Shown in pieces: positions 44,686-55,794 of a DNA stretch of 64,000 nucleotides. The position numbers and the translations under genes are program-made. The notes beneath the pieces are model-generated. The model was not told the DNA's origin. It did no database searches and saw only the letters and a list, made by a program, of their open reading frames with translations. Each line of letters starts with the position of its first letter. The first letter of the stretch is position 1. The DNA is taken from assembly GCF_002214505.1 (NCBI RefSeq), contig NZ_CP015103.1:1860001-1924000 (forward strand), written 5' to 3'. Source of the DNA: Thermococcus siculi (GTDB lineage: Archaea > Methanobacteriota_B > Thermococci > Thermococcales > Thermococcaceae).

Positions 44686-45476
44686 TACGCAACGGTACGT
44701 GGAAGTTCGAGAACGGCGTATTCTACCAGGCGTTCAGAAACGGAATAGCAGGTTACGACGGGGAAAACTTCTTCTTTCCCGACTCGTGGTCGAAGGGAGA
44801 ACGGAAAGAGGCGATGGAAAAGCTCTCCTTCATTCTGGGCCTCGACACGGATCTGGACTCCTTCTACGCGGAGATAAGCGATTCTCCATTTGCTTTTCTC
44901 GCCGAGGAGTTCCGCGGTTTGACTGTCCCCGCGGCCCCAAGCACGTACCAGGCACTCGTGGAAACCATAGCCCAGCAGCAGGTGAGCTTCGACTTCGCCC
45001 AGAGGACGATAGCGAACCTCGTTGCCCTCGCGGGGAAGCCCATAAATGACCTCTACGCCTTCCCAGGGGCGGAGGACGTAGCCGAAATGGACGAGGAAAA
45101 GCTGAAGGAGGCGAAGCTCGGCTACCGCGCCGGCTACATAAGGAGCCTCACCCTTCTGTACCTGGAAGGGAAGCTCAACCTCGAACTGTGGGACTGGAAG
45201 GTCGAGGATGCCATCAAATATCTCACAAAGTTCCGGGGGATTGGGAAGTGGACGGCGGAGCTTTTCCTCGCCTACGGACTGAGGAAGAACGTTTATCCCG
45301 CCGGAGACCTCGGGCTGAAGAGGGGGATAGCGAAGATTTTTGGGAGGAGTGTGAAAGAGGTTAAGGAGAGGGACGTGAGGGAGGTAATCGAGCCATACGG
45401 GAAGTGGAAGGGCCTGCTGGCATTTTACGTGACCTGCTACGACAGGAAGACCGAGCTGGAGAGGAAGGGGAGATGA
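44649..45476 (+). CDS. HhH-GPD DNA glycosylase (AlkA-like)
   Basis: A 275-residue base-excision glycosylase. An N-terminal beta domain precedes the helical core; the helix-hairpin-helix and catalytic Asp are in FRGIGKWTAELFLAYGLRKNVYPAGDLGLKRG, with Asp in AGDLG as nucleophile-activating residue. No iron-sulfur cysteines are present, so it fits AlkA/3-methyladenine or hypoxanthine-type enzymes rather than EndoIII/MutY. It overlaps both neighbours (37 bp upstream, 4 bp downstream). Confidence 0.85.
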   Translation: MAVDIEKTTREMIRNGTWKFENGVFYQAFRNGIAGYDGENFFFPDSWSKGERKEAMEKLSFILGLDTDLDSFYAEISDSPFAFLAEEFRGLTVPAAPSTYQALVETIAQQQVSFDFAQRTIANLVALAGKPINDLYAFPGAEDVAEMDEEKLKEAKLGYRAGYIRSLTLLYLEGKLNLELWDWKVEDAIKYLTKFRGIGKWTAELFLAYGLRKNVYPAGDLGLKRGIAKIFGRSVKEVKERDVREVIEPYGKWKGLLAFYVTCYDRKTELERKGR

Positions 45477-45808
45477 GCGAGATTCTGATAACGCTTCCGA
45501 AGGAGAAGTTCAGGGATCTGAAAGGACGGGATGTAGGCGAACTGCTCAGGACAAACCTTTCCAGGGTCGAAGAGACTCTCAAAGCCGAGCGCGAGGAGTT
45601 CCTTCGTGAGAGAACGGCAAAGCTGGAGGAAAAGCTCAGGGAGATGGAGAGGGAGATAGAGGAGCTGAGGGAGTTCTACGAGAAAGCTCTGAAGGACAAG
45701 GAGTTGATGATGACCGAGAGGGACCGGCTCAGGAAGGAAAACGCCGAGCTGAGGGAGAAGTTTGAGGCGAAGAGGCGTGGGCTTGAGGGGAAAGTTCACG
45801 AAACGTGA
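45473..45808 (+). CDS. Coiled-coil protein, 111 aa
   Basis: A 111-residue protein: a short strand-like start (MSEILITLPKEKFRDLKGRDVGELLRTNLSRVEETLKAE) followed by about 75 residues of unbroken Glu/Lys/Arg/Leu coiled coil. The ATG overlaps the glycosylase stop as ATGA. Its last codons and stop lie inside the first of three operator-like dyads that precede the HTH-nucleotidyltransferase gene. Function unknown. Confidence 0.65.
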   Translation: MSEILITLPKEKFRDLKGRDVGELLRTNLSRVEETLKAEREEFLRERTAKLEEKLREMEREIEELREFYEKALKDKELMMTERDRLRKENAELREKFEAKRRGLEGKVHET

Positions 45809-45854
45809 ACGACTTGTTCACAGAACGTGAACGAAAAGTTCATAAATCATGAAC
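45794..45854 (+). promoter_or_regulatory. Three phased operator dyads before the MNT/HEPN genes
   Basis: Three 17-bp dyads of the form GTTCAY-N5-RTGAAC lie at 45794-45810, 45816-45832 and 45838-45854. Their starts are exactly 22 bp apart, two helical turns, so bound dimers would line up on one face. All 6-bp arms pair perfectly. The third overlaps a TATA-like CATAAAT about 25 bp ahead of the ATG at 45868, so binding should repress. The protein encoded next has an N-terminal HTH and is the obvious candidate ligand. Confidence 0.8.
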
Positions 45855-45867
45855 GAGAGGTATTTCC

Positions 45868-46476
45868 ATGCACGAACTCCTATCAACTAGGGAACGCGTA
45901 AGAATCCTTGAAGAAGTCCTGCAGAAAAACATTGTTGGGGTAGAGGAAGTTGCGAAGAAACTCGGGGTCAGCAAGGGACTGGTATCAAAGACCCTTCAAC
46001 TTTTAGTGAAGCATGGAATCGCCGTGAAGGCTGGAAGGAGGTTTAGAATTCTCAACATGCCAAAAACACGGGAGTTAAAGCGGTTTTTGAACTTCATGAT
46101 GCTCTCGGAGAAGCTTGAAGGGCTTAGAGAGGACTGGATGATAAGTCTCGGTATTTACGGGAGCTTTGCCTTAGGAGAGAACATGGAGGAGAGCGATATT
46201 GACGTTTGGGTGCTCGCGAGGAGGGATGAGCTAATCAAGTCCGCGAGGCTCAAAAGGAAGATTGCGGAGCTAACGGGCAGGGAGGTGGATCTGATAGTCT
46301 TAACGCCATCGAGGATAGCCAGACTCAGAAAGGAGGATCCGGTCTTTTACTACTCCCTCGTCTACGGCTCAATGGTTATATGGGGTGAGCGGCTTGACAG
46401 GGTTCAATCTTTGCGTGGAGAGAAACCTGCTGAGAAGGATAGCTCCATCCAGAGAGAAGGCATTGCTGAGCATTAA
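45868..46476 (+). CDS. HTH-nucleotidyltransferase (MNT) antitoxin-like protein
   Basis: A 202-residue two-domain protein. Residues 1-65 form a winged helix (VEEVAKKLGVSKGLVSKTLQLLVKHGIAVKAGR). Residues about 85-175 are a minimal nucleotidyltransferase with GSFALG (98-103), Asp110 and Asp112 in ESDIDVWV, and Asp141 in VDLIVL, the full metal triad. In HEPN/MNT modules the MNT partner silences the HEPN toxin, in some cases by AMPylating it. Here the added HTH and the dyads upstream suggest it also controls the operon. It overlaps the HEPN frame by 92 bp. Confidence 0.88.
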   Translation: MHELLSTRERVRILEEVLQKNIVGVEEVAKKLGVSKGLVSKTLQLLVKHGIAVKAGRRFRILNMPKTRELKRFLNFMMLSEKLEGLREDWMISLGIYGSFALGENMEESDIDVWVLARRDELIKSARLKRKIAELTGREVDLIVLTPSRIARLRKEDPVFYYSLVYGSMVIWGERLDRVQSLRGEKPAEKDSSIQREGIAEH

Positions 46477-46831
46477 ACGGGCGGAGGAGTGGCTGGAGGA
46501 GGCCAGAAGGAATATGGAGTTTGGCTCATACAGGACTTCCCTCATGGCTTCGTACCTTGCGATGTTCCACGCCGCCAGAGCAGTGCTGTTCCGAGACGGA
46601 TGGAGGGAGAAAAGCCACTACTGTGTCGCAAGGTATCTTGAAGAGTTCTACGTTAAAAGCGGGAAGCTTGAAGGGTCCTGGGTGGAACTCCTCGACAGGA
46701 TGAGGGAACTCAGGCACGAAGACCAGTACGACATTTCATATACGCCCGAACCCGAGGAAGTTGAAGAGGCTTTAAAAGTCGCCAAGGATTTTATCAAGAT
46801 TATAAAATCCCTCGTTGGTGCAGAACTATGA
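46385..46831 (+). CDS. HEPN domain protein, toxin-like partner
   Basis: A protein of up to 148 residues whose body from about residue 24 is a HEPN four-helix domain: REKALLSIKRAEEWLEEARRNMEFGSYRTSLMASYLAMFHAARAVLF, then HYCVARYLEEFYV and LDRMRELRHEDQYDISY. Arg105 and His111 give an R-x5-H spacing compatible with the HEPN RNase motif, though the match is not textbook. The start is uncertain: GTG at 46385 gives a long overlap with the MNT gene and a later GTG near 46415 is possible. It overlaps the next gene as ATGA. Confidence 0.8.
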   Translation: MSGLTGFNLCVERNLLRRIAPSREKALLSIKRAEEWLEEARRNMEFGSYRTSLMASYLAMFHAARAVLFRDGWREKSHYCVARYLEEFYVKSGKLEGSWVELLDRMRELRHEDQYDISYTPEPEEVEEALKVAKDFIKIIKSLVGAEL

Positions 46832-47226
46832 AACTCATCATCAAACCCGAGAAGGGCTTTGGGAAGATTGAGGTCGAGCTGGATGAAGACCTGGTGAGCG
46901 AGATAAACAGAATGAGCGAGCGCTATGGCGTTTCTCCTGAGAGGATAATCGAGATAGCGCTGACCGGGGAATTCAAAAAAAGCTCCGGCGAGCTTGAGGA
47001 GCTGGAAAGGAAGTTCGGAGAACTCGAAGAGAGAACGTGGGAGCTTGAGAAGGAGTACGCCCCGCTCCGCTTCAAGGCCTATGGCGTGAGCGAGGACAAC
47101 AAGGTACTCGCCATCGAGCTTTCCGGCCTCATAGCGGAGAACAGCCAGCTGAGGAGGTTCCTGGGACTAAGGCCGGAGCGCAACCTCGAGCTGAGAAAGC
47201 TTATATCCTACTATCTCCAAGGCTGA
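46828..47226 (+). CDS. Small protein with RHH-like start and coiled coil, third member of HEPN operon
   Basis: A 132-residue protein. The first 45 residues (KIEVELDEDLVSEINRMSERYGVSPERIIEIALTGEF) have the strand-helix-helix pattern of ribbon-helix-helix proteins; a Glu-rich coiled coil (ELEELERKFGELEERTWELEKEY) and a short helical end follow. It overlaps the HEPN gene by 4 bp, so it is co-translated with it. A role as additional regulator or scaffold is inferred from position only. Confidence 0.6.
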   Translation: MKLIIKPEKGFGKIEVELDEDLVSEINRMSERYGVSPERIIEIALTGEFKKSSGELEELERKFGELEERTWELEKEYAPLRFKAYGVSEDNKVLAIELSGLIAENSQLRRFLGLRPERNLELRKLISYYLQG

Positions 47227-55449: not shown

Positions 55450-55794
55450 TTACAAACTTCGCCTTCGCGAAGTTTGATCAAGGCTCGTGGTTCCTTCTCA
55501 AATTGCTTTTCTACGAAGATTTTCACAATATATGAACTAAGAAGGCATGAATTCTCTAACTGCCAGCCTTCTAAAAGGAGTTTCCAACACCTTGACGCCC
55601 TCCGGGCGTCGATTAAAAAGCAAACTCGCAGAAGGATGGATCTGTTTAAAATTTGGAATTCATGAATAGGGAGCAAGTTTTTAAAGAAAATCTCCTAAAA
55701 ACTGCACTTTTGACAAGAACCACGGACTTTAATGAGGCTCTTTGCTTGCAAAGTTTCAACTCTGGAGGAAAGGTACGGACTGTTTAACCTGCTT
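55450..55794. other. Gene-free AT-rich stretch with three hairpins
   Basis: No gene is supported in these 345 bp. Features seen: a 10-bp hairpin CAAACTTCGC/GCGAAGTTTG (55453-55476) directly after the tRNA; GACGCCC/GGGCGTC (55594-55610); CTTTGC/GCAAAG (55740-55753), related in sequence to the first hairpin; and the spaced inverted pair CGTGGTTC (near 55486) and GAACCACG (near 55717). Short open frames exist on both strands but have no ribosome site and poor composition. It may be a decayed mobile or integrated element beside the tRNA; this is inference. Confidence 0.5.

Follow-up and report, generated by a model that had tools for sequence, protein, structure and literature searches.

The window analysed here, a stretch of 64,000 nucleotides from the genome of Thermococcus siculi, carries a two-gene HTH-MNT/HEPN module between two flanking coiled-coil genes, CCup and CCdown (Table 1). 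The HTH-MNT protein matches PF01909 (E 2.4e-9) and is made up of a winged HTH (residues 1-61), an MNT nucleotidyltransferase domain (residues ~68-175) with the motif GSX10DXD, and a disordered C-terminal tail (residues 184-202). Its AlphaFold2 model (mean pLDDT 86) predicts a winged HTH joined to an MNT fold like that of MntA, the nearest folds being MntA structures such as 7bxo and 6m6v, and residues G98, S99 and D110-x-D112 are invariant in the alignment. The third acidic position of the transferase is D (REVDL) in the window protein and in a paralogous group encoded beside nadM (nadM-type), and N (REVNL) in many of the orthologues encoded at the coiled-coil locus (CC-type); catalytic competence may therefore differ between lineages.

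The HEPN gene overlaps the 3' end of the HTH-MNT gene by ~80-90 bp, and the overlap (46385-46476) encodes an extra, low-confidence C-terminal tail of the CC-type HTH-MNTs that is missing from the g12 and nadM-type proteins. Its product matches PF05168 (E 1.1e-24), has 2hsb/AF0298 as its nearest solved relative, and conserves the motif RxLRHxxQYD with an invariant Y91; the RX4HXY motif is absent from the alignment. On the right flank, CCdown has matches in 93 of 94 Thermococcales genomes, frequently with a second diverged copy, and no Pfam match. The N-terminus of CCdown weakly matches an RHH BrnA-antitoxin model (E 0.0014), with a coiled coil behind, and is predicted to be strand-helix-helix in a low-confidence model (pLDDT 60), and the RHH reading is therefore tentative.

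Table 1. Features of the HTH-MNT/HEPN locus, in window coordinates
Feature	Position	Strand	Basis or remark
CCup, upstream coiled-coil gene, left flank of module site	45473-45808	+	ORF, locus comparison
Dyad 1 (distal), GTTCACGAAACGTGAAC, GTTCA-N7-TGAAC	45794-45810	.	arms intact at almost every orthologous locus
Dyad 2 (middle), GTTCACAGAACGTGAAC	45816-45832	.	centre not YGGAGYG here
Putative BRE GAAAA, the spacer between dyads 2 and 3	45833-45837	+	kept across orthologues, 1.73 bits/column
Dyad 3 (proximal), GTTCATAAATCATGAAC	45838-45854	.	overlaps the TATA-like element
Putative TATA element CATAAAT, inside dyad 3	45841-45847	+	position, conservation
HTH-MNT protein, 202 aa, proposed autorepressor	45868-46476	+	domain matches, alignment, structure model
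HEPN protein (PF05168)	46385-46831; start GTG 46385 or TTG 46394	+	domain match, motifs
CCdown, downstream gene, right flank of module site	46828-47226	+	ORF, locus comparison

Ahead of the module lies an array of three dyads of the form GTTCAY-N5-RTGAAC, with start-to-start distances of 22 and 22 bp. A sequence-only reading of this DNA had described three perfect dyads with a 22-bp period, and this description is exact at all three positions. These are also the only exact matches in the genome (2,029,167 bp, one contig), in which a reversed-pattern control gave 0 matches. When the window was shuffled 200 times with its dinucleotides preserved, exact dyads occurred with a mean of 0.01 and a maximum of 1, and no pair of dyads at 22 bp was found. 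The same reading placed the first dyad over the stop codon of the upstream gene and the third over CATAAAT, and both overlaps are as it described, the stop TGA of CCup (45806-45808) sitting within dyad 1. Its placement of the sites on a single helix face is reasonable, 22 bp being ~2.1 turns. The half-site is better given as TGAACGA, making the array a series of six half-sites spaced alternately 12 and 10 bp from centre to centre. A one-mismatch dyad at 55521, which is isolated, lies ~70 bp 3' of a tRNA-like stretch and belongs to no array, was set aside.

It had also been claimed that only the arms of the dyads are conserved. Although the centres do vary among the three dyads of the window, this does not hold across the 21 CC-type loci, in which the core of dyad 3 (1.64 bits/column) and the GAAAA spacer before it (1.73 bits/column) are level with the arms. 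The arm columns themselves score 1.61-1.67 bits, a figure pulled down by two loci that are one base off register, and the cores of dyads 1 and 2 and the first spacer score 0.77-1.13 bits/column. Dyad 3 is thus the only dyad of which both the core and the 5' spacer are conserved in these loci, as would be expected from embedded TATA and BRE elements. In archaeal promoters the TATA element is centred ~27 nt, and the BRE ~33 nt, before the start site (PMC5316973), which would put the start of transcription close to the ATG. We infer that the predicted HTH-MNT transcript is leaderless or nearly so, with its start at about 45868-45872.

These features also bear on whether the palindromes might function as RNA hairpins, in termination, translational coupling or mRNA stability, instead of as DNA sites. 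Stems of six base pairs are possible, a stop codon lies under dyad 1, and a Shine-Dalgarno sequence lies under dyad 2 in genomes that lack the module. However, the arm sequence is near-invariant, with no compensatory pairs seen at the five arm positions and with a sixth pair that varies; a strict 22-bp phase and a dyad on the putative TATA and BRE would be unexpected of an RNA element; and the dyad 3 part would fall upstream of the predicted transcript start. We therefore regard a role as RNA as highly improbable.

The occurrence of the dyads follows that of the module. HTH-MNT genes were detected (E <= 1e-15) in 26 of 94 Thermococcales genomes. All 21 CC-type loci carry three dyads, at -74/-52/-30 from the ATG (-75/-53/-31 in two of them), the third dyad ending 13-14 bp before the ATG in every case; arm mismatches occur in five of these loci and are isolated. 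The nadM-type loci, whose HTH-MNT proteins are paralogous and 46-50% identical, lie between an S-adenosylmethionine hydrolase gene and nadM, upstream of nadM, and all eight carry two dyads at -52/-30 that share the half-sites and the 22-bp phase. In three genomes of another Thermococcaceae genus, three dyads accompany HTH-MNT and HEPN genes without the flanking coiled-coil genes. Direct comparison thus shows the array wherever the module occurs, always at a fixed position, across two loci and several genera. A search for the dyads ahead of homologous HTH-MNT genes had been put forward as a check on the sequence-only reading, and it recovered them at 29 of 29 loci (21 CC-type and 8 nadM-type), none of which keeps the genes without the dyads.

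Conversely, no dyads were found in genera and loci without a trace of the module. In outgroup genera and in two Thermococcus genomes (G030 and G087) the flanking genes overlap directly and there are no dyads, and the hydrolase gene and nadM are directly adjacent in many genomes, likewise without dyads. Since the dyads accompany every copy of the module and are absent where it leaves no trace, they most likely came with it. Further single dyads in module-free genomes (e.g. GTTCATCAACTATGAAC) are taken as chance or coding sequence.

The half-site extends well beyond these orthologues and paralogues. Upstream of distant HTH-MNTs that are only 27-30% identical (PDC-M05A-type; other genera, family f4 of the class, with two outside Thermococcales), TGAACGA/TCGTTCA half-sites are arranged around a TTTTATA box; one such locus (L226) reads TCGTTCATTATAATGAACGA-AAGTTTTATAAGA-TGAACGATCGTTCA. 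These loci have 3-4 half-sites (with at most one mismatch) per 80 bp, a number equalled in 0-9 of 500 shuffles per locus. Most matches of the strict pattern TCGTTCA-N2..9-TGAACGA across the 94 genomes belong to the CC locus, to the nadM locus or to the distant HTH-MNT of G099, and the reversed control of the pattern gave 0 matches. Six other strict matches beyond the CC and nadM loci are taken as chance or coding sequence, three of the five checked lying inside long ORFs. A further palindrome, TCGTTCAATAAAATGAACGA, with the half-site TGAACGATCGTTCA ahead of it, occurs at G063:C46:1868-1887 (L252:1501-1520) with no HTH-MNT in the stretch examined; not every strict match is therefore explained. 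Upstream of three more distant HTH-MNTs from other families (L228, L229 and L233), no TGAACGA half-sites were found in the sequence examined, and the half-site is thus not universal to the HTH-MNT architecture. A contig search with alignment reached Thermococcaceae only, plus weak MNT-only matches in Mollicutes. The HTH-MNT/HEPN module is the sole thing seen to be common to the loci with the half-site, which makes the HTH-MNT protein the best candidate for the binder.

Residues S35, K36, G37, V39 and S40 in the region of the recognition helix are invariant between the CC-type and nadM-type groups, and the dyad arms are likewise invariant. An ArsR-like HTH protein (~137 aa), similar over residues 5-84, was also considered as a binder and was rejected, as it has a different recognition helix and no GTTCA-N7-TGAAC near its gene.

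Taken together, the array at 29 of 29 loci, the half-site shared with distant relatives and the overlap with the putative BRE and TATA elements lend good comparative support to autorepression by the HTH-MNT protein, and we consider it likely that the array is the operator for this purpose. The N-terminal winged HTH would probably bind, as a dimer, each GTTCA-N7-TGAAC palindrome with its TGAACGA half-sites; alternating half-sites permit more than one pairing, of which GTTCA-N7-TGAAC is probably the one used. Three dimers would then sit two turns of the helix from one another and occupy roughly the same side of the DNA. The proximal dimer, on dyad 3, would cover the BRE and TATA elements in the manner of a steric repressor site and would thereby block assembly of TBP/TFB, such that the module would repress its own transcription. 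HTH-MNT as the binder, repression and not activation as the outcome, cooperative binding and modulation by HEPN or the nucleotide state are what we infer. Cooperative autorepression, perhaps tied to the catalytic or complexed state of the protein, had been proposed in the sequence-only reading; the phasing of the dyads is the one feature that hints at cooperativity or such a tie, and the position of dyad 3 suggests interference with TBP/TFB.

Two-dyad arrays are also found where the module is missing. At the CC locus, two recognizable dyads persist without the module at 31 Thermococcus loci in 30 genomes (G090 has two), 23 of these loci having perfect arms. CCdown begins directly after the array at these loci, its start codon 3-5 nt after dyad 2 and its Shine-Dalgarno sequence in the dyad 2 core; the centre of dyad 2, which reads YGGAGYG in most relatives with the exception of the window, serves as this Shine-Dalgarno. 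A pure reading of the array as the operator of the HTH-MNT gene does not predict such dyads unless the losses are recent. Either the losses have been recent and recurrent or another protein uses the sites, and the case for use of the operator by the module itself stands under either.

One explanation compatible with the operator reading is that the leftover arrays are plain deletion scars, the module being lost and re-exchanged too often for decay to set in, and to this we would give an even chance. Filled and empty alleles are interleaved on the locus tree, and the arms are visibly decaying in one clade (G074/75/79/80) and in several arrays at the nadM locus. Modules appear to have been caught during loss in G005, G027 and G034 (L184, L015 and L014), in which HTH-MNT/HEPN genes are frameshifted or truncated and the arrays are essentially intact. 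The history of the window HTH-MNT, which groups with those of G029/G095/G022/G010, differs from that of its flanking genes, which group with G061, a sign that the module was exchanged laterally at an unchanged site. Broken modules and lateral exchange together make recent, recurrent losses plausible. Against plain scars, the empty alleles share almost one common junction (dyad 2, 3-4 nt and the start codon in nearly all), which would need repeated independent deletions at a single site or a very short residence in the empty state. In addition, a clade that shares a derived 4-nt spacer has accumulated 0 arm changes versus 12 core/spacer changes.

The slow change of the arms is more general. In a set of 21 empty genomes without any HTH-MNT, from which the decaying clade and G020 were excluded, the parsimony count is 1 arm change over 20 sites versus 40 changes over 12 dyad-1 core/spacer sites. 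It is conceivable, though we hold it less probable than not by some way, that the module-free arrays are functional, either because a host regulator shares the operator or because the operator was taken over for the coiled-coil/RHH-like gene pair. A further-reaching proposal is that another regulator, such as the RHH-like CCdown or some HTH factor, is the main occupant of the sites, and that the module was inserted downstream and uses its operator. The persistence of two dyads at 31 module-free loci, the slow arms, and the position of dyad 2 directly before a gene with a weakly RHH-like N-terminus would all suit this proposal. However, outgroup genera carry CCdown without any dyads, the arrays at the nadM locus and in the other genus occur without the CC genes, and the distant HTH-MNTs have the half-site yet no other gene in common. 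A search of 15 module-free genomes with HTH profiles also returned generic winged HTHs only. A different principal regulator is accordingly unlikely, and autorepression by HTH-MNT remains the preferred reading of the array.

Arrays left at the nadM locus are more worn than those at the CC locus, the module-free adjacent two-dyad arrays being perfect in 2 of 11 genomes. The T. siculi genome itself holds one outside the window, at G000:C1:2011328-2011366 (L069:1929-1967): a decayed two-dyad array with 3 arm mismatches, directly before nadM and with no HTH-MNT there, which is likely a scar of the paralogous module. In Thermococcus, the interval between the hydrolase gene and nadM has the look of an insertion hot spot, for such modules as well as for other small genes.

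Pairs of a nucleotidyltransferase and a HEPN protein have been divided into classes, and the window pair falls in class II as defined in PMC7641770, with PF01909 and GSX10DXD beside PF05168, no RX4HXY and a conserved Tyr; the authors of that study knew of no biochemistry for this class. It does not belong to class I (type VII, MntA-HepT), as RX4HXY is absent and the NF047752 score is 36.7 against a curated 60. Nor is it an AbiE (type IV) system, its partner being a PF05168 HEPN with no DUF1814 match. The closest named system is PDC-M05, a candidate anti-phage system of PADLOC that consists of the nucleotidyltransferase M05A and the HEPN M05B, is enriched in archaea and has its anti-virus activity still pending (PMC12988326). 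The profiles of both components match the window proteins, which are encoded by adjacent genes: PDC-M05A (201 positions) spans both domains of HTH-MNT (E 7.5e-10) and PDC-M05B matches HEPN (E 2.5e-7). A defence role is a candidate one. No operator or autoregulation is described for PDC-M05 in the papers found. At the level of sequence, the locus has what is expected of an autoregulated toxin-antitoxin operon, namely a palindromic candidate operator over the promoter, conserved with the gene of the DNA-binding partner at 29 of 29 loci. The assignment of HTH-MNT as antitoxin and HEPN as toxin in this class II module is a prediction.

Autorepression by an MNT antitoxin is not without precedent. 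In Shewanella oneidensis, the MNT antitoxin of SO_3165/SO_3166 (MntA/HepT, class I, type VII) represses its own promoter (PMC4621449, PMC7641770). As in the window, this is an antitoxin-first MNT-HEPN operon with GSX10DXD and a promoter with palindromes. SO_3165, however, lacks a recognizable DNA-binding domain and the two palindromes there differ from each other, whereas the window module has a winged HTH fused to MNT, three phased, near-identical dyads, and a PF05168 HEPN without RX4HXY. In AbiE type IV systems, AbiEi/Rv2827c repress via inverted repeats in their own promoter (PMC7319586). Here the likeness lies in a two-domain protein with an N-terminal winged HTH, in inverted repeats over its own promoter, and in a component of the system with a nucleotidyltransferase fold. 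In AbiE, however, the two are on separate proteins: the winged HTH belongs to an antitoxin that is not an enzyme, and the toxin is the nucleotidyltransferase. In the window both are found in one protein and the partner is HEPN. Autorepression by an MNT antitoxin, winged-HTH antitoxins that act on inverted repeats, and the HTH-MNT + HEPN pair as the PDC-M05 candidate are thus known already. No account of this operator, or of an HTH-fused class II module regulating itself, appears in the literature searched, from which many subscription papers are missing. Makarova et al. (2009) doubted that the antitoxin of the MNT-HEPN pair regulates transcription and suggested that DNA is bound by a component acting in trans (PMC2701414).

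In the module studied here, the DNA-binding component proposed in trans by Makarova et al. is instead fused in cis to MNT. The putative operator is precise enough for base-by-base prediction of binding sites at two loci and in several genera. A 61-bp probe and a single thermostable protein of 202 aa provide a ready assay for the effect of the nucleotidyltransferase state or of HEPN on repression. In thermophilic archaea, few mobile modules of two genes are as abundant as HEPN/MNT pairs. Genomes with and without the module offer a natural set in which to follow the fate of an operator after loss of its regulator, and if the operator is indeed shared with the host, gain and loss of the module would rewire a pre-existing control site.
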